Of a stretch of DNA of 46,269 bases, positions 2,994 to 45,584 are shown piece by piece. The stretch is from contig JALSQI010000027.1 of the NCBI GenBank assembly GCA_026985525.1, forward strand, positions 1-46,269. Reading direction: 5' to 3'. Numbering within the stretch: position 1 is the first letter of the stretch; every line of letters begins with the position of its first letter. Position numbers and translations under genes: made by a program. The notes under the pieces were generated by a model. The model did not search any database. It was not told the origin of the DNA and worked only from the letters and a program-made list of their open reading frames with translations. The DNA comes from Archaeoglobaceae archaeon (GTDB lineage: Archaea; Halobacteriota; Archaeoglobi; Archaeoglobales; Archaeoglobaceae).

Positions 2994-3706
2994 GATATCA
3001 CCCCTAAGCTGTTGAGAAGTATTTTCCTTACGAATTCTCCTTCGTCTTTTGTGCAGGCAGTTGTAACTATAAGAACTTTCTGCACACTCGTGCCGTTTAT
3101 GAGTATTGCTCTGATGTTGCCTTTTTCATCACTCCTCGTTAGTTTCAATCTAACTCCTCCACCGCCCGACGCTCCACAGCCCTCTATAACTCCCGGCACG
3201 ATTTTTTTCACGTACTCACACTTCGCAACATCTAATAGAAGTTTTCTACCTTCTCTCCCACCTATGATCGTTGAATGTGCCCCGCCAATTTTTTCGTCCG
3301 GTTTTAATTTAATTTTTCTGAGTTTTCTCTCGATATGTAAGCAAGACTTTACGTTCTCTATTAGCTTCTCTAATTTTCCTTCTAATTTGACGATTTTTAG
3401 ATTTGACAATGCGTATTTCTTTACTAATTCCGCACACAACTCGGCTTTAATGTCTTCTCCAGAAACGAGGACTTCATCTATTCTCCTCCAGTGTATTCTT
3501 TCAGCTACGAGTTCTGCTGAATTCCTTATTGAGTCAGGATGGGCTGAGAAAGAATAGCTTTCCACAACGTTTAAGTCTGCTCTAAAGAAAAACAATCTAA
3601 ACTTATCGTTTAAGTAAACGAGACAGGCATCTACGTTTTTAGTACCACAGTACAAGCAGAATTGAGTAGCATACTCAAGTTCGGCACCACAGTTTCTACA
3701 TTTCAT
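2990..3706 (-). CDS. Zinc-ribbon protein, DUF2103-like
   Basis: This 238-residue protein starts with a zinc ribbon ([19 protein letters not shown]). Its C-terminal half, with [20 protein letters not shown] and the following [18 protein letters not shown], resembles the archaeal DUF2103/COG4031 predicted metal-binding family. The biochemical function is unknown. It lies first in a unit with proS (ATGA-type overlap), which hints at a translation-related role, but that is only context. Confidence 0.7.
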
Positions 3707-3743
3707 GTTTAAGAGGTAGGGCAGCAGGTGTTTTTATTGATTA

Positions 3744-3818
3744 TAGCGGGGCGTGGATTTGAACCACGGATCTGCGGGTTATGAGCCCGCCGGGATAACC
3801 TGGCTACCCCACCCCGCT
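3744..3818 (-). tRNA. trnM: Initiator tRNA-Met (CAT)
   Basis: The minus strand gives a 75-base cloverleaf with acceptor AGCGGGG pairing CCCCGCT, so the first pair is A1-U72, and discriminator A. The anticodon stem has three G:C pairs (GCGGG / CCCGC) flanking CTCATAA. Both are marks of an archaeal initiator rather than elongator tRNA-Met. There is no intron. Confidence 0.93.
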
Positions 3819-3841
3819 TCGATTTTTTCTTAGTTGTATGG

Positions 3842-3850
3842 ATATATAAA
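3842..3850 (-). promoter_or_regulatory. TATA box of initiator tRNA-Met
   Basis: TTTATATAT on the minus strand is centred about 28 bases before the tRNA 5' end, an almost ideal archaeal TATA box. Confidence 0.75.
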
Positions 3851-3896
3851 GTTCTCGGTCATAAGAACTAAATTCTAAAGCCCGAAACCAACTACT

Positions 3897-4406
3897 ATGA
3901 AATTAATTAGGGGGTTATCAATTGCAATAGCTATTTCAGTTTTGCTTATGTGGGTTCTCGCATTCTACTACTACTTTACCATTCCCAATAGAATAGCTAC
4001 TCACTTCGACATAAATGGCATAGCAAATAGTTATGGTAATAAGTCCACTCTATTTGTAATACCTTTCTCGTTTAGTATCGCACCCTTGCTAATACTAATC
4101 ATAGCGAAGTATAGATTTAAGATAATAAAAAAATATCCATATTTGATAAACCTTCCAGCGTTTTTTTATTTATTTAAGGACGATCAACTTAAAGATTATT
4201 TGATTGACAAGTATTTTGAGGCTATGCTCGGTTACACTTTAATTTTAACACTATCTCTGCTTTTTGCTGAAATTGGAATTTTCGAAGGCTCCCTTTCAGG
4301 AAGATTGCCTAAGTGGTTTGATTTAGTAATTTTAATTCCGATAATAGCCGTAATACCCTACTTGTTTTACCTTAAAAAGCTGTATAGTTTGAGAGATAAT
4401 CGTTGA
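3897..4406 (+). CDS. DUF1648-family membrane protein
   Basis: This 169-residue protein has four hydrophobic segments. Between the first two it carries NRIATHFDINGIANSYGNKS, matching the DUF1648 pattern of a proline/histidine/glycine loop. This domain occurs alone or at the N-terminus of SdpI-like immunity proteins. No function can be assigned. It stands alone between the tRNA and the oxidase genes, followed by an inverted repeat. Confidence 0.75.
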   Translation: MKLIRGLSIAIAISVLLMWVLAFYYYFTIPNRIATHFDINGIANSYGNKSTLFVIPFSFSIAPLLILIIAKYRFKIIKKYPYLINLPAFFYLFKDDQLKDYLIDKYFEAMLGYTLILTLSLLFAEIGIFEGSLSGRLPKWFDLVILIPIIAVIPYLFYLKKLYSLRDNR

Positions 4407-4417
4407 CGTCATTTTTT

Positions 4418-4443
4418 GTTAACTAAGTATTTTAGTAATTAAC
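4418..4443. repeat. Imperfect inverted repeat upstream of cydA
   Basis: GTTAACTAA at 4418-4426 is mirrored by TTAG (4432-4435) and TTAAC (4439-4443), with a 3-base interruption in the second arm. It follows a T6 run (4412-4417), so it may end the DUF1648 transcript or be an operator before the cydAA' promoter. Confidence 0.35.
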
Positions 4444-4462
4444 AAGCACATCTAACCGGATA

Positions 4463-4477
4463 GAAAAACTTAAAACC
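4463..4477 (+). promoter_or_regulatory. Probable TATA box of the cydAA' unit
   Basis: AAAACTTAAAACC lies about 65 bases before the start codon, which would give a leader of roughly 40 bases. The leader ends in a strong ribosome-binding site, GAGGTGGTGG, directly before ATG 4538. Unlike many genes here, cydA therefore appears to have a leader. Confidence 0.45.
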
Positions 4478-4537
4478 AGATGCAATCAAAACAGATATAG
4501 CTGAAATGTTTCACCATTATAATTGTGAGGTGGTGGA

Positions 4538-6043
4538 ATGAACTGGGCGAGCTATCCAGCGTTTGGGGACAGAGTACTTTCGATGATAGGTATAGAAGTG
4601 CACTGGATAATTTTGCAGTACATATTGGGATTACCACTGCTTGCAGTTATAGCAGAAATAATCTGGCTTAAAACGAGAGATGAGAGGTGGCTTAAAGTTG
4701 CAAAAACGATCGCAAAGGGCTTTATAATGGTTTTTGCTGTTGGAGCGGCGATGGGTACGGCAGCGGAGTTTGGTCTTGTTTTGCTCTGGCCAAATCTAAC
4801 AGAAATAGCTGGGAAATACATATACTTCCCGCTGTATGCCGAAATATTTGCTTTTATGATGGAAGTAGTCTTTATATATATGTACTACTATGGATGGGAA
4901 AAATTGCCAGAAAAAGCCCACGTAGTAGTCGGTTTACTTGCGTTGACGGGTGCTTGGTTTTCTGCTACAATGATAGTCAGTGTTAACTGCTACATGCAAG
5001 CTCCTACGGGCATACTGCTCGGAAGTTATGCGAAGGGCTATCCAAAGTTAACACTTTACGTTCCAAGCACGATAGTTTCAGCTTTAAACGTTACAACCCT
5101 TCAATTAGCCGGAATGGATGTGTTGGGAAAAGCTGGTAACAGCGTTATAGTTGCTATGCCAAGTAAAATAGTAAAAGTGATAGTAGCTGACGCAGTCGCA
5201 GGAAAAACTGTATCTCACAGCGTTTTGTGGAAAGTTCTAACACCAGCTGCAAAAACGAAGTTGGCAAACGTAACAGTTATGGCGATTTTAGATGCAATAA
5301 TGTTCGATACAGTTAGGCACATAGGGGTATATACTGTAACTTTCAAATCTCCCGTATTCGCTCCTTCCGTATTACACGCAGTAGGCTCTGGAATTGTTGT
5401 TTCAGCTTTTACAGTCATGGCGTTTTTTGCTTACTCGTTTTACAAGAGGGGTTCCGAGCATGCAAAATTGGGTTACAAGTACGGAGCTGTATTTTCTTTA
5501 ATTTCAATAGTCTATCAGGGTTTTGTAAGCGGACATGAGATGGGAGTTGCTGTTGCAGAGTGGAACAGAGAAAAGTTTGCAGCCATACTTCACGGTTCTC
5601 CACCTTTCGTAGAAAAAATGGAATTAGCTCTGGCAGGAGTTAAAAACATCGTTTCATACAATCAGATACCTCTCTGGCTTAGACCTCCGACTATAATCCA
5701 CTACTTCTACTATACAAAAGTAACTCTTGCAGTTTTGTTAGGTCTTTCTGCCTTAGTAATCGTTTACATGTTGTTCGTGAAAAAGAAAGAATTTTGCAGT
5801 CCATATATGCTAATACTTCCAGTAATTGCTCAGCTTGTAAGTTTTCTTGGATGGGCAGTTAGAGAAGTTGGCAGGAAACCGTGGACTATTTACGGAATAA
5901 TGGATGTAAAAACTGCACACACAATAAACCCTCCACCTCTGTGGGTTGACTTCTTAGTAGAGGCTTACTTTATAGGCTTGTTAATACTACTATGCTACGC
6001 AGTCTATAGATTTCTCTGGAAAGCTGGGGAGGTGAAAGCATGA
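4538..6043 (+). CDS. cydA: bd-type oxygen reductase catalytic subunit CydA (CydAA' type)
   Basis: This 501-residue membrane protein is the heme-bearing subunit that reduces oxygen at the expense of quinol. H22 matches the E. coli H19 heme ligand and H280 (SVLHAVGSG) matches H186. E109 in the FAFMMEVVF helix matches E107. The quinol region keeps K346 (REKFAA) and GRKPW at 445-449 (usual GRQPW). The position of E. coli E257 is Leu351, and that of the heme b558 ligand Met393 appears to be Thr396. An extra loop of roughly 80 residues lies between YMQAPTG (152-158) and H280. The next gene is a paralogue, not CydB, which fits the archaeal CydAA' family described by Murali and colleagues. Confidence 0.9.
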   Translation: MNWASYPAFGDRVLSMIGIEVHWIILQYILGLPLLAVIAEIIWLKTRDERWLKVAKTIAKGFIMVFAVGAAMGTAAEFGLVLLWPNLTEIAGKYIYFPLYAEIFAFMMEVVFIYMYYYGWEKLPEKAHVVVGLLALTGAWFSATMIVSVNCYMQAPTGILLGSYAKGYPKLTLYVPSTIVSALNVTTLQLAGMDVLGKAGNSVIVAMPSKIVKVIVADAVAGKTVSHSVLWKVLTPAAKTKLANVTVMAILDAIMFDTVRHIGVYTVTFKSPVFAPSVLHAVGSGIVVSAFTVMAFFAYSFYKRGSEHAKLGYKYGAVFSLISIVYQGFVSGHEMGVAVAEWNREKFAAILHGSPPFVEKMELALAGVKNIVSYNQIPLWLRPPTIIHYFYYTKVTLAVLLGLSALVIVYMLFVKKKEFCSPYMLILPVIAQLVSFLGWAVREVGRKPWTIYGIMDVKTAHTINPPPLWVDFLVEAYFIGLLILLCYAVYRFLWKAGEVKA

Positions 6044-7122
6044 TACTTGAGTTTTTGGCTTTAACTTTTGGTCTTCACATTCTCTTAGTAAACCTCGCAA
6101 TAGGATTATCGACTGTAATACCTTTGATGAAAAGGGCTGGGGAGAGAGGTAACAAGGAATTAATATTAATTGCGAGAAAGCTAATGAAGTTTTACGCCGC
6201 AACCTATGGACTTGGTGGTGTTTTGGGAACTGCTTTTACCGTGTTTCTATTGAGCTTCTATCCCGGTTTTATAGGCTTGGCTGGAAACATAGCTTTCGTC
6301 CCGTTCGCATTATCGATACTGCTCATATGCCTGCACTTTATATCCATAGTGATATACTGGTACGGCTGGGATAAGCTTTCCCCAGAAACGCACTTTTTGG
6401 CAGGAGTAGCAATGATGACTTCTGCAATCCTTATACCCTTAGGCTTTAGAGCTATATTTGGCTTTTTAAACGCACCCGTAGGTTTAGAATTACAGCCGAA
6501 AATACACCTCGACACATTAAAAGCGCTCAGTAATCCAACGTTTTTAACTCTATACCCCAAGAGCATTTTCGCTTCTTATACTCTAACGTTCTTCTTACTG
6601 TCAGCCGTTTTTGCTAAAAAAGAGATTTCGTTAAAGTTTGCTAAGTATGGGCTTGTAACGCTATCCATAACAGCTTTGCTTGGAATAGCCTACGCTGAAA
6701 CGCTGAGAACTATAGCACCATACAAATTTGCTAACGCTCTTGGATTTCTTTTTGGAATTCAAGCCAAGTACAACGTTGGATGGCTCTTCGCTCTCAAGAT
6801 GCTTTTCGTGACAATTCAGTTCGTTGCTATAGCTTACTTTTTAAAGTCTAAGAGGGCTATTTTTGCTGAGATTGCTGGCGTTTCTGCATCAATATCAGTT
6901 GTCGCAGGTGAACTGCTCAACGCATTTAGCCAGTATCCAATGTTGATAGCAAATGTTTCAGGAATTCCTGCTAACGTTGCTACTCAGCTTGAAAACATTC
7001 TAAACATGGCAAAACCAAATCCATTAACGACTATGAACAGTTTGTACGCTATAACTCTCGCATTTCTAGTCCCTCTACTTGCTTGCTTCGCTTTCTTAGT
7101 TTACATGATAGCAAAAGATTGA
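6040..7122 (+). CDS. CydA' paralogous subunit of the oxygen reductase
   Basis: This 360-residue polytopic protein replaces CydB. Its N-terminal half aligns with the upstream CydA: H13 (FGLHILLVNLAIG) against H22, and YGWDKLSPETH...NAPVG against YGWEKLPEKAH...QAPTG. It lacks other heme-site residues: the E77 and E109 positions are Thr and His, and the H280 position is Ala (SIFASYTL). This is the pattern of CydA', a duplicated and degenerate CydA that pairs with CydA. The start overlaps the cydA stop (ATGA), indicating coupled translation. A CydB label would be a mis-annotation. Confidence 0.85.
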   Translation: MILEFLALTFGLHILLVNLAIGLSTVIPLMKRAGERGNKELILIARKLMKFYAATYGLGGVLGTAFTVFLLSFYPGFIGLAGNIAFVPFALSILLICLHFISIVIYWYGWDKLSPETHFLAGVAMMTSAILIPLGFRAIFGFLNAPVGLELQPKIHLDTLKALSNPTFLTLYPKSIFASYTLTFFLLSAVFAKKEISLKFAKYGLVTLSITALLGIAYAETLRTIAPYKFANALGFLFGIQAKYNVGWLFALKMLFVTIQFVAIAYFLKSKRAIFAEIAGVSASISVVAGELLNAFSQYPMLIANVSGIPANVATQLENILNMAKPNPLTTMNSLYAITLAFLVPLLACFAFLVYMIAKD

Positions 7123-7202
7123 TTTTATAGTAAATTAATTTTTTTAATATACTTTGCACAACTATCGTAACGTAAATATACGAGCTTAAATTCATTATAA
7201 TC

Positions 7203-7871
7203 ATGAACATGGTGGAGCAAAAATATCAACTGATTCCCGGTGTGGAGCTAAGGAAAGGCTCGAACGTTATGATATACGGTCCAACGTTTTCTGGAAAAGC
7301 TATGTTCGCAAAATCCACTTTCAGAAAACTAATCAATTCGAACTATGGCGGTATATACGTTTTGACGAGGGAAACAGCTGAACAGCTAATAGAGTGGCTC
7401 GGTAACGATTACAATCCAAACAAAGTAAAGATAATTGACTGCGTAACTAAATCTATGACTGGAGAGGCTAAGGATACTGCGTCTATAAAGAGAGTGACTG
7501 TTATGGATTTAACTGGAATTTCAGCCAAAATCAGTAAGTTCTTCGAGGAATTCTGGAGGAGCGGAGTGAAAGACGTAATCTTAGTTTTCGATTCTCTCTC
7601 AACTTTGCTTATGTACCTAAACATTCAAACTGTCTTCAGGTTTCTACACATCCTTACTGGCAGGGTTAAGATGACAGGAGCTATAGCTTTCTACATAGTA
7701 GAAGAAGGTATGCACGACGAAAAAACGATAGTCACTTTAAAACAGCTGTTCAACGGCATGATAGAATTTAAAGAAGAAAACGGCAAAAAATACGTTCGCT
7801 TTGTCAGCTCACTCGTTAAAACAGAGTGGTTTGAAATTGTAGTTGATGAAAACAGCGTGGTGATCGCATGA
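7203..7871 (+). CDS. RecA/KaiC-like ATPase
   Basis: This 222-residue single-domain protein belongs to the RecA/KaiC superfamily. The Walker A is GPTFSGKA (26-33), with alanine where Ser/Thr is usual, and the Walker B is ILVFDSLSTLL. It resembles archaeal RAD55/FlaH-like ATPases of unknown role. The gene heads a four-gene unit; its end overlaps the next gene by four bases. A TATA-like GTAAATATACG lies about 26 bases before the ATG. It probably acts with the GTPase fusion downstream; the substrate is unknown. Confidence 0.75.
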   Translation: MNMVEQKYQLIPGVELRKGSNVMIYGPTFSGKAMFAKSTFRKLINSNYGGIYVLTRETAEQLIEWLGNDYNPNKVKIIDCVTKSMTGEAKDTASIKRVTVMDLTGISAKISKFFEEFWRSGVKDVILVFDSLSTLLMYLNIQTVFRFLHILTGRVKMTGAIAFYIVEEGMHDEKTIVTLKQLFNGMIEFKEENGKKYVRFVSSLVKTEWFEIVVDENSVVIA

Positions 7872-9037
7872 AAGCTGTTACGGGCATACCCGTATTAGAT
7901 GAAGTAGTTGAAGAATTCCCAGAAAGTAAAACTTTGACTTACTGGATAGATCCAGAAGTAGAGGGAAATGCATTTGCTATGCAGACTATATATACTAACT
8001 TGGAAAGGGGTTTTAAATGTGCATACGTTACAGTAACCATTTCTCCCGAATCCGTAATTTCTGAATTCGAGGAATTTGGCTGGGAAGTTAAGGAATTTGA
8101 GAACTTTGAAATCGTTGATTTGTACTCAAGCTATGTTGGTTTTCCTTCAAAGTGCAAGTATAATGCAAATCCGATAAACTTGGAAGAAGTCGAGGTGCTT
8201 ATGAAAAAGGTATTGGAGAAGTTCGACATCGTATTTCTCCCAGCCTCTTCAATAATAGACGTTTGCGGAGAGGAGGCACTTAGATGCATTAAAGACTGGT
8301 GCAGTCTTGCAAAAAGTATTGGTAAGAGGGTTGTTTTATCCTTTGTAGCATGGCCCTACTCAAAAGAAGTTAAAGATGGGATAATAGAAATTTCGAATGC
8401 TTTGGTTAAAGTAGGTGGAATACATCACAGAGTTATACTTGGCTATTACTATGGTCTGGTTAAAGCCGACTGGAAAAACGTCAAAAGCAGGGCTATTCTA
8501 TTTAAGTTAGTTCGACCGGGTGGTGTTAGAGCATACATACCAAAAATTCTCGTTACAGGCCCATACAACGCTGGAAAATCGAGTTTTGTTCACGCCATTT
8601 CTAATAGAGCTGTATCCGTTGACAGGTTGGGGACTACAGTTGCTTTGGATCATGGCCACCTTGAATACAAGGGTTTTTCGATAGATCTATTTGGAACGCC
8701 CGGACAGGAGAGATTTGACCCAATACTACGAATGCTTGGTAAAGAAGCTCTTGGAGTTATATTAGTTGTCGATTCGACAAAACCCGAAACTTTTCCGAGA
8801 GCAAAGCAGATGCTTGAATCTGTAACTCACTTCGGACTGCCATACGTCGTAGCTGCGAACAAACAGGATTTGCCCAACGCCCTTCCTCCAGAAGAGATAA
8901 AAAGGAGGATGGTTTTGCCGAATGATGTGCCGGTAATACCGATTTCTGCAGTTAAAGGGGAAGGCGTTTACAAAGTTATTGATGCCTTGTTAGATTTGCT
9001 TATATGGCGGGAGGGAGAAGATGAGCTTGAGATCTGA
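7868..9037 (+). CDS. RecA-like domain fused to a Ras-superfamily small GTPase
   Basis: This protein has 389 residues. Residues 1-215 look like a KaiC/RecA-type domain without a Walker A. Residues 224-380 are a complete small GTPase: P-loop GPYNAGKSS (231-239), switch I Thr in GTTVAL, DLFGTPGQERF (273-283), NKQD (331-334) and SA (360-361). The DLFGTPGQ and LVVDSTKP stretches resemble the prokaryotic MglA/COG2229 group. It is encoded between an ATPase and a Roadblock protein, overlapping both genes, so a GTP switch controlled by that Roadblock protein is likely. Confidence 0.85.
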   Translation: MKAVTGIPVLDEVVEEFPESKTLTYWIDPEVEGNAFAMQTIYTNLERGFKCAYVTVTISPESVISEFEEFGWEVKEFENFEIVDLYSSYVGFPSKCKYNANPINLEEVEVLMKKVLEKFDIVFLPASSIIDVCGEEALRCIKDWCSLAKSIGKRVVLSFVAWPYSKEVKDGIIEISNALVKVGGIHHRVILGYYYGLVKADWKNVKSRAILFKLVRPGGVRAYIPKILVTGPYNAGKSSFVHAISNRAVSVDRLGTTVALDHGHLEYKGFSIDLFGTPGQERFDPILRMLGKEALGVILVVDSTKPETFPRAKQMLESVTHFGLPYVVAANKQDLPNALPPEEIKRRMVLPNDVPVIPISAVKGEGVYKVIDALLDLLIWREGEDELEI

Positions 9038-9386
9038 ACTTGAAGAAGTTTTGAAGGAATTGAAAGCAACGGGAGATATAGAAGCATCAGCAATAGTTTC
9101 GAGAGATGGATTGTTGATAGCTGCTGACATATCTTCAAACGTTAATGCTGAGGCTTTTGCGGCTATGAGTGCTACTATGCTTGGCGCGGCAGAAACTGCG
9201 ATGTCTGAACTTGGGAAAGGATTGCCGGATAGAGTTGTAGTTGAGAGTTCAGACGGTAAAATAGTTGCTACGGGTGCGGGAGATAGAGCTTTGTTAGTCG
9301 TAATGACGTCTCCAAAAGCGAATCTGGGTTTAATTCTGCTTCAATTGGGTAAAGCGAGTAAAAAAGTCGAGGAGTTGTTGGGGTGA
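9021..9386 (+). CDS. Roadblock/LC7-domain protein (MglB-like)
   Basis: This 121-residue protein is a single Roadblock/LC7 domain: it begins with a helix (ELEEVLKEL), then IEASAIVSRDGLLIAADI and the long helix rich in Ala/Met (EAFAAMSATMLGAAETAM), ending RALLVVMTSPKANLGLIL. Such proteins dimerise and act as GAPs or regulators of small GTPases such as MglA. It overlaps the GTPase-fusion gene by 17 bases, with GGGAGAAG before its ATG, and a V4R gene follows within 5 bases. Confidence 0.88.
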   Translation: MSLRSELEEVLKELKATGDIEASAIVSRDGLLIAADISSNVNAEAFAAMSATMLGAAETAMSELGKGLPDRVVVESSDGKIVATGAGDRALLVVMTSPKANLGLILLQLGKASKKVEELLG

Positions 9387-9390
9387 GAAC

Positions 9391-9966
9391 GTGTTTGATG
9401 CGTTAGTTAGCGAGGATTTGAGAGATTTTAGCGAAGAAGAGCTTGATAAACTGTTTGTAGTACACGAGGAAGGAATAAAGCAATTCTTGGGAAGGATACC
9501 TCTCGGATGTATATACGCCACTTTTCTGTCGGGCTTGTATGTGGAGATGGAGAAAATAGTAGGGAGAGCTGCGAGAGGTTTGATAATAAACGCTTCTAAG
9601 AACAGAGGTAAGATAGCTGGAAACGCTATAAGGAGAAGGTACGAGAAAAAGTACGGTGAAATGAGCGTTGAAAGGGCTAAAATGGTTGCGAGAAACATGC
9701 TTGTTATATGGGGCAAGTGCTTTGGCTGGGGAAAGATGAGTTTTAAAGTTAACGATACGGAATTCTGGCTCGAAGTGGAAGATTCCTTGGAGGCTACTGG
9801 ATTTTTAAAGCTTAAAGAGAAACCTAAGGGGCCGGTTTGCTGGATGTTACTCGGCTACTCTTGGGGCTTACTCGAAGGGCTATTTAACAGAAAGTTTGAA
9901 GGTGAGGAGGTGGAGTGCAAAGCTGTAGGAGGTGAGAAGTGTAGGTTCGTTTTCAGAACTATCTGA
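9391..9966 (+). CDS. V4R (4-vinyl reductase) domain protein, putative sensor
   Basis: This 191-residue protein ends with the V4R signature, GEEVECKAVGGEKCRFVF, with the paired cysteines typical of this small-molecule binding fold. An N-terminal helical part of about 60 residues precedes it. V4R domains bind hydrocarbons or tetrapyrrole-like ligands in some regulators; the ligand here is unknown. The GTG start is preceded by GGGGTGAGAAC. Its place at the end of the ATPase/GTPase/Roadblock unit suggests it feeds a signal to the GTP switch. Confidence 0.78.
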   Translation: MFDALVSEDLRDFSEEELDKLFVVHEEGIKQFLGRIPLGCIYATFLSGLYVEMEKIVGRAARGLIINASKNRGKIAGNAIRRRYEKKYGEMSVERAKMVARNMLVIWGKCFGWGKMSFKVNDTEFWLEVEDSLEATGFLKLKEKPKGPVCWMLLGYSWGLLEGLFNRKFEGEEVECKAVGGEKCRFVFRTI

Positions 9967-10003
9967 GTAAAGTATTTTTACCCCATTTTGCTATTTTGTG
10001 AAG

Positions 10004-10705
10004 ATGAGAATACCTCTTTACGTTGAGTTTAAAGGAAAAAACGTTTTGATAATTGGCGGTGGAGGAGTCGGAGCTTCGAGAGCAAAAAAGTTCTTAAAAG
10101 CTGGAGCAAATGTTAGAGTTCTCAGCCTTGATTTTTGTAACGAATTGAAAGAAATGGAGAAAAAAGGAGAAGTGAAATTAGTGGAAGGAAACGCTTTTGA
10201 CGAAAAACTTTTGGAGGAGAACATTTCTTGGGCGAACTTGGTTACGGTAGCTATACCTCCATTGGAAATAAACGATAAAGTGATTGAACTGGCAAAGAAG
10301 TACAGGACTCTCGTCAACCTCGCTAACGACGCTGAGAAAACTGAAGTCGTCGTGCCTTTCGAAGGAGAAGTAGATGGAATTAGGTTTGCAGTTACTACCG
10401 AAGGTAAGAGCGGAGTGGTGGCGAGAAAGGTGAGAGATTCGATTAAAAAGATGCTTGAAGAGGACGAAGAAATAATCTACTTCTTAAAGGCTATGTACTA
10501 TCTCAAGAGGTACATGAAAAAGAGGAAAATACCTATTCACATGAGGATGAAGCTTTACTTTGTAATATCTTCAAACCCTGAGTTTGTTGAAATGGTTAAG
10601 AAAGAGGACGTTGAAGGAGCAAAGAAGTTGGTGGAGAAATTAGTAGAAGAATACGTTTCGGGAAAGAGGGATGTAGATGAAAGTTCAGTCAAAATCAACT
10701 TTTGA
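10004..10705 (+). CDS. Precorrin-2 dehydrogenase / sirohydrochlorin-forming enzyme
   Basis: The protein matches the Met8p/SirC/CysG-N family, which oxidises precorrin-2 to sirohydrochlorin with NAD+ and may insert iron. It starts with a Rossmann motif (VLIIGGGGVGASRAKKFL) and keeps TTEGKSGVVARKVRDSI, the usual signature near the substrate site. Start: a TATA-like AGTATTTTTACC (9971-9982) sits about 27 bases before ATG 10004, so I prefer this over GTG 9998. The next gene, overlapping by 29 bases, acts later in the same siroheme-to-heme route. Confidence 0.9.
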   Translation: MRIPLYVEFKGKNVLIIGGGGVGASRAKKFLKAGANVRVLSLDFCNELKEMEKKGEVKLVEGNAFDEKLLEENISWANLVTVAIPPLEINDKVIELAKKYRTLVNLANDAEKTEVVVPFEGEVDGIRFAVTTEGKSGVVARKVRDSIKKMLEEDEEIIYFLKAMYYLKRYMKKRKIPIHMRMKLYFVISSNPEFVEMVKKEDVEGAKKLVEKLVEEYVSGKRDVDESSVKINF

Positions 10706-11630
10706 TGAAGAAACGACTAAGCTTTTAATGGGTATTCAGTATTCCTTACCCTTGACAACGACACCCTTAGTTGACCTTGCAGACGAGCTTGGGTTGAAAT
10801 CTGAATTCGTAATGAAAAAAGTAAAGGAGTTTTACGGAAACGTAATAAAGAGATACGGTGCCAATTTGAACTATAGGGCTTTTTCAAAACAGCAAAGAGC
10901 TGCATTAATAGCTGCAAGAGTTGACGAAAGCAGGATTAAAGAAGTGGCGAAGGTAATAAACTCTTACAATCCGAAGCACAACTACTGGAGAGACGATTAC
11001 TACAACGTCTGGTTTACATTAAAAGCGAAGGATGTCGATTCCGTAAAAGCTCTTGCTGAGGAGGTAATGGAGAAGTGCGGAGTTGAGGAATACATAATTC
11101 TGCCAACTAAGAGAGTTTACAAGATGGACGTAAAGTACGACTTGATAAGGGGTATTTCTTGGAGTGAAAAGAGCGAAGAAAAGTTTGATGTCCCAAAAGT
11201 TGAGGAATTGGGACTGGATGCGAACTTACTTAGAAAGTTGGAAAAGCTAAGAGTTACGGAAAGACCTTTCTCTAACTTAGGATATTCTGAAGAGGAATTA
11301 GTTGACTTAATAAAAGAATTAATAGACATGGGTGTTGTAAGAGACTTCAGCGGAGTTTTGAAGGAGAGATTAGCTGGATTTAAAGAAAACGGTATGAACG
11401 TAGTTAAAACGGAGGAGCCTGAAAAGGTTTCTAAAAAACTCGCAAAAAGACCGGAAATAACTCACTTAGTTGAAAGGGAAGTGCCTGAGAATTGGCAATA
11501 TCCCGTTTACTTCATGGTTCACGCAGTAAAAAGGGAGTACATAGAAAGGGTTAGAAGAGATGTGGAAAAAATGAGCGGAGTTGAGGAGATAAGAGTTCTG
11601 TACAGCATCATGGACTTAAAATACTCTTAG
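10677..11630 (+). CDS. ahbAB: Fused siroheme decarboxylase AhbA-AhbB (Lrp/AsnC-like)
   Basis: This 317-residue protein contains two tandem AhbA/AhbB (NirD/L-like) units of about 160 residues, each with an N-terminal winged-helix part and a C-terminal ferredoxin-like part. The second ends ENWQYPVYFMVHAV, a family hallmark; the first has the weaker NVWFTLKA. AhbA and AhbB normally form a heterodimer that decarboxylates siroheme to 12,18-didecarboxysiroheme in the alternative heme route. Fusion gives fixed stoichiometry. The gene overlaps the dehydrogenase gene by 29 bases. Start ATG 10677 follows GAGGGATG. Confidence 0.87.
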   Translation: MKVQSKSTFDEETTKLLMGIQYSLPLTTTPLVDLADELGLKSEFVMKKVKEFYGNVIKRYGANLNYRAFSKQQRAALIAARVDESRIKEVAKVINSYNPKHNYWRDDYYNVWFTLKAKDVDSVKALAEEVMEKCGVEEYIILPTKRVYKMDVKYDLIRGISWSEKSEEKFDVPKVEELGLDANLLRKLEKLRVTERPFSNLGYSEEELVDLIKELIDMGVVRDFSGVLKERLAGFKENGMNVVKTEEPEKVSKKLAKRPEITHLVEREVPENWQYPVYFMVHAVKREYIERVRRDVEKMSGVEEIRVLYSIMDLKYS

Positions 11631-11666
11631 GACTTAAAATACCTTAAGCGTGCTTAGACGTGCTTA
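11612..11666. repeat. Short tandem duplications across the ahbAB stop
   Basis: GGACTTAAAATACTCTTA (11612-11629) is followed at once by the near-identical GGACTTAAAATACCTTAA (11630-11647). Then ACGTGCTTA-like 10-mers follow twice (11648-11656 and 11657-11666). The duplications span the stop codon and run up to the convergent DUF424 gene. Confidence 0.7.
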
Positions 11667-11963
11667 TAGAACCACCATCTGCGCGTGAGGACAGCCACCA
11701 ATAACGAGAACTCTATCTTTGTCTATTATTCCTTCTTCGATTGCTAATTTTACGGCTTTTTCTCCACTGATGTTCGCAATCGTAGCTCTTTTCAGCAAAT
11801 CTCTAACTCTTTTTTCATCTACTTCTTCGCTTCCGTAGAATTTTTCAGTTATTTCGAGTTTCAGTTTTCTCTCCTCATCCCTGAAAGTTTTGCCCACTAT
11901 GTCTGAATCACAAACTGCAACTAAGAATTCTCCCTGAACTCTGTAAACTTTAACTCGAAACAT
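11664..11963 (-). CDS. DUF424 family protein
   Basis: This 99-residue conserved archaeal protein is recognised by GKTFRDEERKLKLEITEKFY and the end motif RVLVIGGCPHAQMVVL. The family has no settled function. It starts one base after the aIF2-beta gene ends, and this pairing recurs in Archaea, hinting at a translation-linked role. Confidence 0.85.
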   Translation of the reverse strand: MFRVKVYRVQGEFLVAVCDSDIVGKTFRDEERKLKLEITEKFYGSEEVDEKRVRDLLKRATIANISGEKAVKLAIEEGIIDKDRVLVIGGCPHAQMVVL

Positions 11964-11964
11964 C

Positions 11965-12372
11965 TCAGAAAGGTCTCACTGGATGTTTTGCCCCACAAGC
12001 CATGCACTTCATGAAGAGAATTCTTTCCTCTCTTACCAGTATTGTGTCGGGCGAGTTGCACTCTTTACACAGTACGTAATCTTTAACGTAAGAGTCCACT
12101 TCTTTCTGTACTTCTTCTTCAGTAAACTTACCTTGTAGAGTGAGCCTTCCTGCCTCCAGAAATCCTGCAGTTCCAAGAGCTTTAACCAGATACTTGTAAA
12201 GGTGTTCTTCACTTCTGTTTACAGTCTTTGCTATTTGGGAGAAGTTCTTTATTATCGTTCTGCTACCTTCCCTAAGTAAGCTCACTTTTGGTATTTCAAA
12301 TCTCTCCCTTTTTACTACTTCTTCTGGTAGTTCTGATAGGGCTTTTTCGAGTAGTTCTTCGTAACTTCTCAT
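11965..12372 (-). CDS. Translation initiation factor aIF2 subunit beta
   Basis: This 135-residue protein is the beta subunit of the heterotrimer that delivers initiator Met-tRNA to the small ribosomal subunit. It has the core alpha-beta domain (SEEHLYKYLVKALGTAGFLE) and a C-terminal zinc ribbon with CKEC and CMAC pairs. The length is normal for Archaea. A TATA-like CTTATTTATTGA lies about 25 bases before the ATG. DUF424 follows downstream. Confidence 0.95.
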   Translation of the reverse strand: MRSYEELLEKALSELPEEVVKRERFEIPKVSLLREGSRTIIKNFSQIAKTVNRSEEHLYKYLVKALGTAGFLEAGRLTLQGKFTEEEVQKEVDSYVKDYVLCKECNSPDTILVREERILFMKCMACGAKHPVRPF

Positions 12373-12410
12373 GTCTCAGGCTTTAACTTATCAATAAATA
12401 AGTCTTTGGT

Positions 12411-12962
12411 TCAGTCGGAAACAAACAGTTCAGAAAGCTTTAAGAACTTTTTTCTACTCCTCTCCAACTTCATCTTCGCTATTTCGAGAACTGAGCTCAA
12501 ATCTAAGGGCAGTGCTTTTTTGAACCTAACTGGTATTTCTATTCTTTCGTGTCCACATACCTCTACTACAAAGTTTTTCAGAGAGATTATCCCCGCTCTT
12601 CTTATTCCAGCTCTTTGAGATTTAATTAGTAACTTTTCAGCACTCTTTAAATCCCTGCACGCAATGTGAAGTATTGGTGGGTGTAACATCAGCCAAGTCG
12701 TTTTTCTGCCAGCTTGTATTGCCCTTAAAACTTCGCTTTCTTCCGGAATTTCGTGCCATTTGCCGAGAAAAATAGCTTCTCCCTTGTTACCAAAATCTTT
12801 CATGTCCATTACAGCCAATCTACCAGCACAACTCGAAAGAGTTACGTAATCTGGATTTTCGTTTATTCTTTTAAGTATCGGAACTATCCACTCGTCAACT
12901 TCCCCCATCTCAATCGCTCTGTTTAAAGATTCAATCTTTCTCTTTTTGTACTCCTGCCACAT
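12411..12962 (-). CDS. taw3: tRNA wybutosine-type methyltransferase Taw3 (TYW3 family)
   Basis: This 183-residue protein matches the TYW3/Taw3 family, which N4-methylates the wyosine-derivative intermediate at position 37 of tRNA-Phe. Family marks are VTLSSCAGRLAVMD, GKWHEIP and the CRDLKSAEKLL region. A ribosome-binding GGTGAT lies 5 bases before the ATG. It is divergent from purP and ends 38 bases before the aIF2-beta start. Confidence 0.92.
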   Translation of the reverse strand: MWQEYKKRKIESLNRAIEMGEVDEWIVPILKRINENPDYVTLSSCAGRLAVMDMKDFGNKGEAIFLGKWHEIPEESEVLRAIQAGRKTTWLMLHPPILHIACRDLKSAEKLLIKSQRAGIRRAGIISLKNFVVEVCGHERIEIPVRFKKALPLDLSSVLEIAKMKLERSRKKFLKLSELFVSD

Positions 12963-13007
12963 TCAAATCACCGCAAAACAGATTTACCACATGTAGTTCG
13001 TTTAATT

Positions 13008-14129
13008 ATGATTTCAGATTTGGTTAAGGAAATTGCGGATGAGTATAGGGATATTACGATTGGCATATTTGGTTCTCATTCTGCAAAAGAAATAGGAGTT
13101 TCGGCTAAGGCTTGGGGTTTCAGAACTCTGGTAGTCGTTCAGAAGGGCAGAGATAAACTCTACACGAAGTATAATTCTCACTTATACGATGAGTTCATAG
13201 TTGTTGACAAGTTTAAAGACATGCTAAACGAAGAAGTTCAGGAAAAGATGAGAGAACTGAATACGATTTTTATACCGAACAGAAGTTTTGCTGTTTACGT
13301 GGGGTATGATGGTATAGAGAACGATTTTAAAGTGCCGATTTATGGAAACAGGTTTTTACTTAGAGCGGAGGAGAGAAATTACGAGAAAGGGCAGTACTAT
13401 CTACTAAAAAAGGCTGGAATAAGAATACCCAAAGAATTTAGTTCACCTGAGGAAATAGATAGGTTAGTGGTAGTAAAAGTTCAGCAGGCAAACAACCCAC
13501 TTGAAAGAGCTTTCTTTTACGCGAAATCTCCAGATGACTATTACCAGCAAGCAGAAAAGCTGATAAAAGAAGGAGTTATAGACGAAGAGGGTTTAAAAAA
13601 AGCAAGAATTGAGGAATACGTTCTCGGTGCGAGGTTTAACGCTAACTTCCACAGCTACGCTTTAAAAGACGTTTTTGGAGATTTTGACTTCGTAGGGTTT
13701 AGCGACAGAAGACAGGTTAACTTGCAGGGATTTCTGAATCTACCAGCTAAGGATCAGCTAAAAATAGACGTTCCAGTAAAGAACGAGGAAATTGGACACT
13801 TTGGTGTAACTATGAGAGAAAGTAAGCAGGAAATGGTTTACGACACCGCCGAGAAATTCATAAGAATTTGCGAAAAAGAATATCCACCGGGAATGATTGG
13901 CTTATTTGGTTTGCAAGGAGCTATAGCTTACTCAGGTGATAAACTTGAATTCATAGTTTTCGACGTATCAATGAGAGTTCCGGGAGATCCTTGCATAGGT
14001 CCAACTTCTCCGGAAATGAGAAACTTGAGCGTGAAACACGGAATTAAGATAGAAGATCCCTTGGACTTAACTATGATGGAGTTGAAAAAAGCTGTTGAGG
14101 AGAGAAGGCTTGGAGAAGTAGTTACTTAG
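13008..14129 (+). CDS. purP: FAICAR synthetase-family protein PurP
   Basis: This 373-residue ATP-grasp enzyme matches the archaeal PurP family, which formylates AICAR with formate and ATP in purine synthesis. Signs are IGIFGSHSAKEI near the N-terminus, the ATP-grasp stretch and the conserved end FDVSMRVPGDPCIGPTSPEM. PurP occurs in functional and divergent subgroups; the His in GSHSA is kept, but the exact subgroup is not settled here. Its end overlaps the convergent DUF2070 gene by 8 bases. Confidence 0.92.
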   Translation: MISDLVKEIADEYRDITIGIFGSHSAKEIGVSAKAWGFRTLVVVQKGRDKLYTKYNSHLYDEFIVVDKFKDMLNEEVQEKMRELNTIFIPNRSFAVYVGYDGIENDFKVPIYGNRFLLRAEERNYEKGQYYLLKKAGIRIPKEFSSPEEIDRLVVVKVQQANNPLERAFFYAKSPDDYYQQAEKLIKEGVIDEEGLKKARIEEYVLGARFNANFHSYALKDVFGDFDFVGFSDRRQVNLQGFLNLPAKDQLKIDVPVKNEEIGHFGVTMRESKQEMVYDTAEKFIRICEKEYPPGMIGLFGLQGAIAYSGDKLEFIVFDVSMRVPGDPCIGPTSPEMRNLSVKHGIKIEDPLDLTMMELKKAVEERRLGEVVT

Positions 14130-40581: not shown

Positions 40582-40824
40582 TCACCTAATTATTTCTCTA
40601 TATTTATTTTCCACAGTGTTTACCATGTACTTTACATCTGGAAAGTACGTGAATACTTTCTCTTCATCAATTCCAAGCTTTTTTGCCCATTCGTAGAACT
40701 CAGTTAGCTTTTCAAAGAATTTTATGTACGAATCGAGAAAGTCCGTTTTCTTTTTCGAAGATATAGCTTTTTCGAATAATACTCTTAAATCCTGGTACTT
40801 TGGATCTAATTCCATGTATATCAT
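40582..40824 (-). CDS. Unknown 80-aa protein, last gene of the nif operon
   Basis: This small helical, Lys/Glu-rich protein (MIYMELDPKYQDLR at the start, VKYMVNTVENKYREII at the end) is not recognised. It lacks the LWQF-type motif of VnfG/AnfG delta subunits. The start ATG 40824 overlaps the stop of the 99-aa gene (ATGA), with GGAG about 10 bases before it; an in-frame TTG at 40830 is less likely. Tight coupling to nifK and the 99-aa gene suggests a role in nitrogenase function or assembly. Confidence 0.75.
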   Translation of the reverse strand: MIYMELDPKYQDLRVLFEKAISSKKKTDFLDSYIKFFEKLTEFYEWAKKLGIDEEKVFTYFPDVKYMVNTVENKYREIIR

Positions 40825-41120
40825 ACCCAATCAACTCCTTTTTCCAAACAAACTCTTCTTATCTCTTCAATAGTTTCGTCGGGAACATTGAACTTCTTTA
40901 GGTCATCTAAATTTTTTATATTAACTGGTTTTCTGAATGCAGAAAGAAATTCCCCTTCCACGAACTTCGCTACTATCACCGGTATTCCCTTAATTCTCGT
41001 AACCTGAACGAGCAAGTTTGGTTTCGTTTCTTCACCCACGTGAAAAGTAATGTATGCGAAATTTCCATTTTCAGAAATTCTACCAAGCCTGTCGTAGAAC
41101 TTTACCTTTATCACCTTCAC
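40821..41120 (-). CDS. Unknown 99-aa protein following nifK
   Basis: This protein is not recognised. It begins with a beta-rich part (MKVIKVKFYDRLGRIS, then YITFHVGEE and LLVQVTRIKGIPVIVAKF) and ends in a helical part (VPDETIEEIRRVCLEKG). The single cysteine is near the C-terminus. A near-perfect ribosome site, GAGGTGAT, lies just before the ATG, 22 bases after nifK, so strong translation in the nif operon is expected. It resembles neither NifX, NifT nor AnfO as I know them. Confidence 0.8.
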   Translation of the reverse strand: MKVIKVKFYDRLGRISENGNFAYITFHVGEETKPNLLVQVTRIKGIPVIVAKFVEGEFLSAFRKPVNIKNLDDLKKFNVPDETIEEIRRVCLEKGVDWV

Positions 41121-41142: not shown

Positions 41143-42540
41143 TTACTGCTGCTTCTGATCCCAAGGTATGCGCGTGTCGAGTATCGTGTTCACTATCTCG
41201 TCGAAAAGCCTCAAACTGCCCATGTAACCGACTATCGGCCATCTGAAGTGTCCAACTCTATCGTATATCGGAAATCCAATTCTTACGAGACCAATTCCAA
41301 GCTCTTCAGCGAGCTTGGCTCCACCCCTCGGATGTCCGATTAATAAATCAACGCCCTTCTCCTTAACCGACTTCTCGAAGTCCCAGAGGTCGGAGAACTG
41401 AACTTCGAAGCTCACGTCGAACTCCTTGGCTATCTTCTCCATCTCCTGTCTGTAAACCTTCGAAGGCGTTTGGGTGTTGACGACTATTGGCTTAAGCCCC
41501 ATTTCGCAGCAGAACCTCGTTATGGCTATGACGAAGTCAGGATCTCCAAATATACCAACTCTCACATCTTTGGTGTAGTGGACTGTATCGACTATCGCGT
41601 CTATCAGCCTACCTCTCTCATCCAAAAGCCTGTCGGGAATTTCCAAGCCCGTAACCTTCGCCAAATTGATTATGAAGTCGTCCGTGTTCTTTATGCCTAT
41701 GGGCAGTCCGAAGTAAGCTTCCACTCCGAACCTGTTCTTCAAATACAAAGCTCCACTCCCCCCGGCGTGCTGGCATAGTGCGAAGGTCGCCTTTGCGTTA
41801 GCGGCATCGACGAACTCCTCTACGAGAGTCCCACCCTTCGGGTAGTAGGGAAGTTCCCTAATGGGCTCTCTCAGAGGTTGGTAGAGTGTTTCGCTTATGT
41901 CGAAAAGAATTGAGTAATCTTTCTTCTCCTTCAGTCCGAATATGTTTAGAATTCTCTTTATCTCCTCTATGTCCCCCGGATTCACGCCGAAACCGGGAAT
42001 GACGTTTATTATCTTTTCACTCCCCTCATCCTTCTTAGCTAAATGTCCCAAGAATGCCTTCGAAGCGTTGTCGTATCCGGTTACGTGACTTCCCTGATAT
42101 GAAGGGCAGTGAACTGGAATAACTGGCAGTTGAGCCTTCTCCTCTCCCAACTCCTTGGCTATTTTCTTCTTTGCGGCCCTTATGAAAGCCTCTATGTCAT
42201 CCCCTATGGTTTCCGAGGAGCATGTAGTTATCACCGCTATCAAATCGGGATCGTATCTCGCTACCAAATTGAATACGCCTTCGACTAAGTTCTTCATTCC
42301 TCCATAGACTGCGGCGTGTTCGTGGAATGAAGCGACCGCTATGGTTACCGGCTCCCTGAAGTGTCTGTTGAAGGTGTATCTCACGTATGTGCAACAACCC
42401 TGAGAGCCTTGAACGAAAGGAATGCCTCTGTGAACTCCCAGCGTAGCCCACATTGCTCCAATTGGCTGGCAGATCTTGTTGGGATTTATGGTTACCGCCC
42501 TCTGCTTTTGAACGTAGCAGATTTCTCCCATCTCAACCAC
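41143..42540 (-). CDS. nifK: Nitrogenase beta subunit NifK-like
   Basis: This 465-residue subunit is half of the dinitrogenase heterotetramer and shares the P-cluster. Ligands are kept: C24 (KICQPIGA), C49 (GSQGCCTYVR), C107 (VITTCSSETIGDD) and the Ser188 equivalent S147 (CPSYQGSHVTGYD). FNRHFREPV is also conserved. It lacks the long N-terminal extension of Azotobacter NifK and is close in length to AnfK/VnfK. It overlaps nifD by 8 bases; nifE and nifN do not follow. Confidence 0.93.
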   Translation of the reverse strand: MVEMGEICYVQKQRAVTINPNKICQPIGAMWATLGVHRGIPFVQGSQGCCTYVRYTFNRHFREPVTIAVASFHEHAAVYGGMKNLVEGVFNLVARYDPDLIAVITTCSSETIGDDIEAFIRAAKKKIAKELGEEKAQLPVIPVHCPSYQGSHVTGYDNASKAFLGHLAKKDEGSEKIINVIPGFGVNPGDIEEIKRILNIFGLKEKKDYSILFDISETLYQPLREPIRELPYYPKGGTLVEEFVDAANAKATFALCQHAGGSGALYLKNRFGVEAYFGLPIGIKNTDDFIINLAKVTGLEIPDRLLDERGRLIDAIVDTVHYTKDVRVGIFGDPDFVIAITRFCCEMGLKPIVVNTQTPSKVYRQEMEKIAKEFDVSFEVQFSDLWDFEKSVKEKGVDLLIGHPRGGAKLAEELGIGLVRIGFPIYDRVGHFRWPIVGYMGSLRLFDEIVNTILDTRIPWDQKQQ

Positions 42541-43957
42541 TCCTGAGCTCGAACTTCTTCTCTCCTTCCCTCAGAACGTTCCAGATTGGGTGGAAAACTG
42601 CCTTGTATATGTCTCTGGCGAAGTTAACGAACCCTCTGTATGCCACGTAAGGTCCCCTCTCGTATGAGTGGGAGTTTATCGTCGGAACTCCATACTTCCT
42701 GAACAGATACCTCTCTTTAAGCCCCGTAAGCATGAAATCGGGTTTGAACGTCTTTACAGCTTCTTCAAGCTCCAATTCGTTCGGAGCATCGATTATAATG
42801 ACTCCCTTTATTCCAGCCTTCTTCAAATTCCTGTTTATCTTTTCGTAATCCTCTTCATGTCCAAAAGTCGTACACGCAACTACGTAATCTATACCCAAGT
42901 CCTTCATCGCCATAATCCAGTGCCACGTCCTCGGAGCTCCGACGTAGCATAAGCAAGTTAAACCCTCGAACTTCTCCCTGTAAAAATCAAGCTGTGGTTT
43001 TATTGCCTCCATCTCCTCCTTTACTATCTCGTCCACCCTCTCCTTCGGAATGTTCAAAGCCTCTGCAATTCTGTATAGGGATTCGGTCGTTTCCGAAATT
43101 CCGAACATGCTGACTCTTATGAAAGGAACGTTGAACCCATCCTGAATCATCTCCGCTATGTATTCCGCCGATCTCTGGCAGAGAACGATGTTCAGCTTTA
43201 CATCCGGTAGTTTGAAGAGGTCGTCTATCGAGGCGTTTCCAGTGAAAATCGTAACAACCCTACAACCCATCTTTTCGAGCAACGGAATCCAAACCGCAAC
43301 GTCCCAGTCCATGTTGTATTCTCCGATTATCGCGACATCGTAGGGTGTCTTTTCTTCCTCCTTCAGGCACTTCTCCGGAAACTTCTCCCTCGCCTTCCTT
43401 ATGTATCTGTAGAACGTTACGTTGAATACATGATGGCCTTTAGACTGGCTTACCCCAGCGTATCCCGGACTGTTTATCGCTACAACCGGCTTCTTTATCT
43501 CATCCTCCACCTTCTTTGCAACAGCTTCGACGTTATCTCCTATCAGAGCGGTGGGACAGGTGGTGTAGATTATTATGCCCTTAGCATGCGGAAACTCCTC
43601 GTTAGCCTCAATGCAGGCTTTATAGAGCTTCTTCTCTCCCCCGTAAACTATGTCTGATTCTTGCATGTCCGTGGAGAAGCAGTAACGCCTGTGCAGGTCG
43701 TTGTCGCTTAAATTTCTCCTCGTTCCCCAAGTGTAATATCCACAGCCTATCGGCCCGTGAATCATGTGGATGACGTCCTTTATGGGCCCTCCTACAACTC
43801 CTCTCGCTCCAGCAAAAGCGCAACCCCTTTCTGTCAGATCTCCCGGAACGGTATTGGAATTGCAGAGAGGAACTATCTCTTCTTCAGGATCGTAAGCGTA
43901 AATGTGCTTCATCCTCTCCGGAATACACTCATCGCATTTCAGCAAAATAAACGGCAT
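42533..43957 (-). CDS. nifD: Nitrogenase alpha subunit NifD-like (intermediate type)
   Basis: This 474-residue catalytic subunit binds the active-site cofactor. P-cluster cysteines are C46, C72 and C134. Cofactor ligands are C260 (LCQRSAEYI) and H430 (INSHSYERGPY). Q171/H175 (SQSKGHH), R81 and K414 (LKERY) are also in place. The N-terminal half (TWGTRRN, CFSTDMQESDIVYGGEKKL) looks like Mo-type NifD, while LCQRSAEYI and GPYVAYRGFVNFARDIYKAV look like VnfD/AnfD. No delta-subunit gene is adjacent. Metal type is therefore open. Confidence 0.93.
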   Translation of the reverse strand: MPFILLKCDECIPERMKHIYAYDPEEEIVPLCNSNTVPGDLTERGCAFAGARGVVGGPIKDVIHMIHGPIGCGYYTWGTRRNLSDNDLHRRYCFSTDMQESDIVYGGEKKLYKACIEANEEFPHAKGIIIYTTCPTALIGDNVEAVAKKVEDEIKKPVVAINSPGYAGVSQSKGHHVFNVTFYRYIRKAREKFPEKCLKEEEKTPYDVAIIGEYNMDWDVAVWIPLLEKMGCRVVTIFTGNASIDDLFKLPDVKLNIVLCQRSAEYIAEMIQDGFNVPFIRVSMFGISETTESLYRIAEALNIPKERVDEIVKEEMEAIKPQLDFYREKFEGLTCLCYVGAPRTWHWIMAMKDLGIDYVVACTTFGHEEDYEKINRNLKKAGIKGVIIIDAPNELELEEAVKTFKPDFMLTGLKERYLFRKYGVPTINSHSYERGPYVAYRGFVNFARDIYKAVFHPIWNVLREGEKKFELRSG

Positions 43958-43966
43958 AAAACCACC

Positions 43967-44347
43967 TCATATTGCACTTTCTCCACTTTCTCCAGTTCTA
44001 ATTCTAATAGCATCTTCTACAGGTAAAACAAAAATTTTACCATCACCTATATTTCCAGTTCTGTTTACTTTCATGATTATACCCACAACTAAAGGAACAT
44101 CCTCGTCATTCACGACTATTGACAGAAGTCTCTTAGGTATGTATTTCATGTACAATCCCTGCTTTTCTCCCTCTTCCACTATTTTTTTCATGTCTATGAC
44201 GTCGGGCAGGTTGACATCGAGGTAACCTCTTTGTTTACCCCTCCCAAAACACTTCATTACAGTTAAAGCTGGAAATCCGACAGCTTCCAGAGCCTTTGCA
44301 GTCTTGGAGACTTTGTTTGGTCTTATTATCGCTATAATTTCTTTCAA
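43967..44347 (-). CDS. nifI2: Nitrogenase PII-like regulator NifI2
   Basis: This 126-residue PII-family protein has MKEIIAIIRPNKVSKTAKAL, then a T-loop region longer than in NifI1, and NRTGNIGDGKIFVLPVEDAIRIRTGE (cited in part), the PII end motif. NifI1 and NifI2 form a complex that reversibly inhibits dinitrogenase when fixed nitrogen is plentiful and is relieved by 2-oxoglutarate. Its position between nifH and nifD is the usual archaeal one. It abuts nifI1 directly. Confidence 0.93.
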   Translation of the reverse strand: MKEIIAIIRPNKVSKTAKALEAVGFPALTVMKCFGRGKQRGYLDVNLPDVIDMKKIVEEGEKQGLYMKYIPKRLLSIVVNDEDVPLVVGIIMKVNRTGNIGDGKIFVLPVEDAIRIRTGESGESAI

Positions 44348-44665
44348 CTAAATCCCCCTTTCCCCTGTTCTTACCGTATATGCCTCTTCTATGGATTGAA
44401 TGAAGATCTTACCATCTCCGTAATTTCCAGTATAAGCTGAACTCTTTATTAGCTCTACAATTTTCTTTACGTCCTCATCGTTTATTGCAATTAGCAACAT
44501 GACTTTTGGTAGTTCGTCGTAGTAGTATTCTCCAACTTTCAGTCCGCCTTGCTTACCCCTACCGACGACGTCTATTTTTGTAAAAGCTGGAAATCCAGCC
44601 TCACTGAGAGTATCGATTACGTCATCTACTTTTTCTGGTCTTATTATTGCCTTAATAAGCTTCAT
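44348..44665 (-). CDS. nifI1: Nitrogenase PII-like regulator NifI1
   Basis: I choose ATG 44665 (105 residues, starting MKLIKAIIRPEKVDDVID) because all PII proteins start here and AGGATG lies 6 bases upstream; the open frame extends 10 codons further. YTGNYGDGKIFIQSIEEA is the PII C-terminal motif. It partners NifI2 in ammonia switch-off of nitrogenase. It starts 4 bases after nifH. Confidence 0.93.
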   Translation of the reverse strand: MKLIKAIIRPEKVDDVIDTLSEAGFPAFTKIDVVGRGKQGGLKVGEYYYDELPKVMLLIAINDEDVKKIVELIKSSAYTGNYGDGKIFIQSIEEAYTVRTGERGI

Positions 44666-44669
44666 GTTA

Positions 44670-45584
<915 letters not shown>

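Follow-up and report, generated by a model that had tools for sequence, protein, structure and literature searches.

Nitrogenases of thermophilic Methanococcales form a clade known in the literature as F-Mc (PMC7216921). Garcia et al. placed F-Mc close to the base of the Vnf/Anf side and found nifN to be missing in most members, and an active-site classifier, together with arguments from nifEN, labels F-Mc Nif-like (PMC7216921). Growth of Methanothermococcus thermolithotrophicus, which we assigned to F-Mc by its operon layout, on N2 is strictly Mo dependent, and its nifHI1I2DKXEN genes adjoin modABC (PMC9765008). The nitrogenase of Methanocaldococcus infernus is stated to be Mo dependent in a further report (PMC13381448), and Roseiflexus NifDK, which belongs to a more distant "uncharacterized" clade, works in vitro as a Mo nitrogenase (PMC11573651). 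An earlier note on the DNA analyzed here, made from its letters alone, had counted its nitrogenase among uncharacterized thermophile enzymes of unsettled metal dependence; the thermophilic Methanococcales relatives described below bear out the first part of that view, whereas the second has been overtaken by these reports.

Here, we analyzed a stretch of 46,269 nucleotides ("the window"), which is contig C27 of a 1.34-Mb Archaeoglobaceae genome (95% complete). Open reading frames and profile searches placed nifH-nifI1-nifI2-nifD-nifK in one operon on the minus strand (positions 41143 to 45548), with two small genes downstream:

44670..45548, minus strand: nifH, Fe protein (TIGR01287 nifH, 454 bits, above cut-off)
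44348..44695, minus strand: nifI1, PII-type regulator (P-II models; gene order kept in all relatives)
43967..44347, minus strand: nifI2, PII-type regulator (P-II models; gene order conserved)
42533..43957, minus strand: nifD, catalytic alpha subunit, 474 amino acids, intact (TIGR01862 above cut-off; residue table; trees)
41143..42540, minus strand: nifK, beta subunit, 465 amino acids, intact (TIGR01286 best model, below cut-off; tree; ligands)
40821..41120, minus strand: small gene at the hp1 position, 99 amino acids (homologues directly 3' of nifK in 12 Methanococcales and in siblings)
40582..40830, minus strand: conserved gene of 82 amino acids at the operon 3' end, no assigned function (homologues in five other Archaeoglobaceae)

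The nifH start likely lies at 45524 (MSYFDEVAP...), judged from sibling sequences, and NifH is 94 to 97% identical to most siblings and 83% identical to G003. Sequence comparison suggests that NifDK is very probably a two-subunit (NifD2K2) Mo nitrogenase of the F-Mc lineage, shared with Methanococcales by horizontal transfer.

NifD was 83 to 93% identical to same-genus copies and 70 to 77% identical to twelve Methanococcales copies; VnfD of sibling genomes (about 45%) and Methanococcus-type Nif (43 to 45%) were less similar. NifK was 72 to 84% identical to Methanococcales proteins. Maximum-likelihood trees were computed for NifD, NifK, and joint D+K, as well as for each NifD half separately. 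Both subunits fell inside the thermophilic Methanococcales clade (100/100 in the D, K, and D+K trees). Firm branching of D and K inside one characterized clade is an outcome that the earlier note had named as refuting its reading, and the trees essentially show it. Methanococcus, whose Nif is reported to be Mo dependent, branched between F-Mc and Vnf+Anf, a position that is moderately supported (94/90 in D+K). In the D+K tree, Archaeoglobaceae were nested within Methanococcales (99/97), indicating transfer from Methanococcales to Archaeoglobaceae. This direction is likely rather than certain, since rooting of the clade differs in the tree of K by itself; exchange between vent neighbors, both being heat-loving archaea of the same vents, is the likely route by which nif entered Archaeoglobaceae.

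The closest solved structure was 9spz for both subunits (NifD, 77% identity and 885 bits; NifK, 915 bits to 9spz_B). Chain 9spz_A is 100% identical to NifD of a Methanococcales genome, and we take the structure and its matching genome to be M. infernus. NifD and NifK scored below the dedicated cut-offs (TIGR01282, 443 versus 654 bits; TIGR01286, 384 versus 427 bits). Both shortfalls arise from the models, which represent Nif of the classical bacterial type; NifD passed only the generic alpha-subunit model. NifD scored nearly equally against TIGR01860 (VNFD, 442 bits) and TIGR01282 (443 bits), and fold comparison of the NifD model against a library that lacks 9spz gave VnfD a Z of 37.6 and NifD a Z of 37.3, with NifEN also tied. 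Since these values are nearly equal, neither the profile scores nor the fold match tells the Mo type from the V type.

By alignment, the cofactor and P-cluster ligands C46, C72, C134, C260, and H430 of NifD correspond to Azotobacter vinelandii (Av) C62, C88, C154, C275, and H442, and Q171, H175, and K414 correspond to Q191, H195, and K426. All are present, as the earlier note had stated in calling the protein a true nitrogenase. Its choice of R81 as a key residue needs correction: the equivalent of Av R96 is R80, and R81 corresponds to Av R97. The NifK P-cluster ligands C24, C49, C107, and S147 are also present.

We considered whether the enzyme could be truly mixed, i.e., a recombinant or intermediate form that lacks a delta subunit and uses V, Fe, or more than one metal, as the earlier note had proposed in describing a Mo-type first half and a VnfD/AnfD-like second half. 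NifD does share motifs with Vnf (GVSQSKGHH, PRxWHW, and TW at 92-93), and VnfD was its second-best solved structure (413 bits versus 885 for 9spz). However, the Vnf-like words SQSKGHH and PRxWH also occur in NifD of ANME-2, Chloroflexi, or Mo-dependent Methanococcus and are therefore not Vnf specific. Mean identity of the first half was 46% to NifD-A, 44% to NifD-B, 48% to Vnf, and 43% to Anf; that of the second half was 31, 34, 36, and 37%, respectively, and 40% to Mo-dependent Methanococcus. In the half trees, the window clade stood by itself (100/99 and 100/100), and neither half joined Vnf/Anf, contrary to the proposed division. Vnf+Anf formed a separate group at 100/100 in the D, K, and D+K trees and in both NifD-half trees, so there is no Nif/Vnf mosaic; a mosaic NifD was also rejected by identity over quarters and halves, which, like the half trees, gave no sign of recombination. 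At the positions that separate metals (Av numbering), NifD carries A65, G69, R96, T380 (no Lys), K426, E427, and R428. Every position dividing Mo from V/Fe enzymes is thus in the Mo state, unlike Vnf/Anf, and the Vnf/Anf signature (Lys at 96 and 380, L/H at 69, C at 65) is absent from NifD. These diagnostic residues fit the "Unc./Nif" (uncharacterized, Nif-like) pattern of McGlynn et al. (PMC3578447). The earlier note was correct that there is no G gene: vnfG/anfG (PF03139) was absent from the window and from the whole 95%-complete genome, and the same search was positive in Methanosarcina acetivorans and three sibling genomes. A truly mixed enzyme is accordingly very improbable. The mixed appearance of NifD is a matter of inherited position, its intermediate similarity being a trace of branching order and not of mixed metal use, and the supposed Nif/Vnf hybrid is thereby removed.

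Two other readings dispute the enzyme's substrate or its owner. NifDK might be a nitrogenase-like enzyme acting on another substrate, such as methylthio-alkane reductase, CfbCD, or BchNB, which belong to the same superfamily. NifD matched 9d9u/9fmg, which we take to be methylthio-alkane reductase structures, and distant matches to BchNB and CfbD models were also found. However, the 9d9u/9fmg match reached 115 bits, compared with 885 bits for a characterized nitrogenase to which NifD is 77% identical, the P-cluster and cofactor ligands are complete, and nifBEN and nifI are present, leaving this reading next to no probability; the closest sequence relatives are not methylthio-alkane reductase-type enzymes, a grouping that the earlier note had named as a possible refutation of its reading. 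The high identity of NifD and NifK to Methanococcales proteins could instead reflect a methanogen contig misbinned into an Archaeoglobaceae genome. Against this, synteny with sibling G002 (MAG JALSLC010000024) extends to either side of the operon, the flanking genes being 67 to 85% identical, the operon is present in Archaeoglobaceae MAGs of several assemblies, and McrA is absent from the whole genome; misbinning is highly unlikely.

NifH and NifK are 97 to 98% identical to those of G002, where the flanking genes are 67 to 85% identical. The locus is therefore truly chromosomal, and its nif genes are either unusually conserved or recently exchanged. GC content was 0.45 across the nif genes (41143 to 45548) versus approximately 0.39 in the surroundings. 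NifD of G012, which belongs to another genus, shares 97% identity over 243 amino acids; together with the G002 values, this hints at recent nif exchange within Archaeoglobaceae. The nifD frame is broken in two Archaeoglobaceae MAGs (L044 of G022, 8762-11961; L055, 10001-11439), as is nifK in L044; these frames represent either assembly errors or decayed genes.

Sibling genomes G001 and G004 carry a separate VnfD-VnfG-VnfK, with G001 VnfD (890 bits) above the VNFD cut-off of 823, so a genuine alternative nitrogenase occurs in this genus, and it is distinct from the NifDK of the window. In both (L037 of G001, 2372-9401; L043 of G004, 5570-13757), the vnfD-vnfG-vnfK cluster is accompanied by divergent E/N-like genes; that of G004 additionally includes nifHI1I2 and nifB, and vnfG also occurs in G005.

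Cofactor assembly genes were found on a second contig (C50) of the genome that includes the window, where one run of genes comprises nifB, nifE, and nifN together with a homocitrate-synthase-like gene and an importer of the modABC type. NifB, NifE, and NifN each scored below curated equivalog cut-offs. ModA scored above its cut-off, and modC matched WtpC best, below cut-off; going by modC, the importer might carry tungstate instead. NifE and NifN (L035, 1383-3879 of C50) formed their own branches with the Methanothermococcus-type proteins (100/100 each), away from classical NifE/NifN. NifE of the M. infernus group instead clusters with the classical proteins, and its gene neighborhood showed no NifN. 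A separate, older or independent NifDK duplication could have produced the NifEN of this clade, making it nonorthologous to classical NifEN and implying that the scaffold evolved more than once. A single clade for all NifE was not rejected (AU test, P = 0.174). We consider such an origin unlikely; the pattern may instead reflect loss of NifN in Methanocaldococcus. The presence of NifE and NifN in F-Mc members outside Methanocaldococcus is relevant to the suggestion that the lineage is older than NifEN (PMC7216921).

We infer Mo content, N2 reduction, and regulation for the Archaeoglobaceae nitrogenase as follows. Hydrolyzing ATP, NifH would deliver electrons to the P-cluster, located where D and K meet, and these would move on to the FeMo-cofactor, which would be held by NifD C260 and H430 and at which N2 would be reduced. 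NifB would make the cofactor core and NifEN would be the site of its completion; ModABC would bring in the Mo, the linked synthase-like gene would provide homocitrate, and NifI1/NifI2 would switch nitrogenase off. For the NrpR operator GGAA-N6-TTCC, allowing up to 1 mismatch, 30 matches were found versus 22.8 expected; there was no exact match and none upstream of nifH. HTH_12, our proxy for NrpR, was absent from the whole genome. Together with the absence of McrA, this suggests that the carrier is probably no methanogen and probably regulates nif in another way than Methanococcales do. Archaeoglobaceae were earlier reported to be without nif (PMC4600277); the present data add them to the carriers of the thermophile Mo nitrogenase.

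In 12 Methanococcales, the gene directly behind nifK encodes a homologue that is 31 to 50% identical to the hp1-position protein; identity in siblings is 56 to 74%. Several clade genomes have the order nifHI1I2DK-hp1-EN-modABC, with the hp1-position gene where M. thermolithotrophicus has nifX, and the two are probably the same gene. The predicted structure of the hp1-position protein was confident (pLDDT of 92), and a fold search with this model returned no match at E ≤ 0.001 (best, VIA, Z of 5.7). Deletion of hp1 in Methanocaldococcus FS406-22 left diazotrophic growth in the laboratory unaffected (PMC8809328). Although hp1 is dispensable in FS406-22, the gene is kept after nifK throughout the clade. 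The 82-amino-acid product (40582 to 40830) is 44 to 70% identical in five other Archaeoglobaceae and by sequence was found only in Archaeoglobaceae nif operons; it had no Pfam match above cut-off, and its match to a designed toroid was rejected as a repeat artifact.

Among known systems, the sibling VnfDGK (G001 and G004) resembles the window in having related D and K subunits and, in G004, nifI1I2, but it differs in identity (43 to 45%), in the presence of VnfG, and in its K96/L69/K380/G428 state. The Roseiflexus and ANME-2 nitrogenases share the Mo-state active site and the RxWH motif, whereas identity to them is 45 to 51% and they form separate branches; these "uncharacterized" enzymes are reported to be without NifEN (PMC9012536, PMC11573651). 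M. infernus NifDK (9spz, 9sq3) is closer, with 77% NifD identity, nearly all tabulated active-site residues, the nifHI1I2DK order, the hp1-position gene, and no G, and it differs at a few second-shell residues (Av positions 189, 357, and 382). The NifE in its cluster belongs to a different lineage, with no NifN seen there, whereas the Archaeoglobaceae genome has NifE and NifN with nifB and modABC. The Methanothermococcus-type operon (nifHI1I2DKXEN-modABC) has the same parts, NifD identity of 70 to 75%, and NifEN of the same lineage; there, the genes form one operon, whereas here they are divided into two clusters, nifHI1I2DK-hp1 and nifBEN-HCS-modABC.
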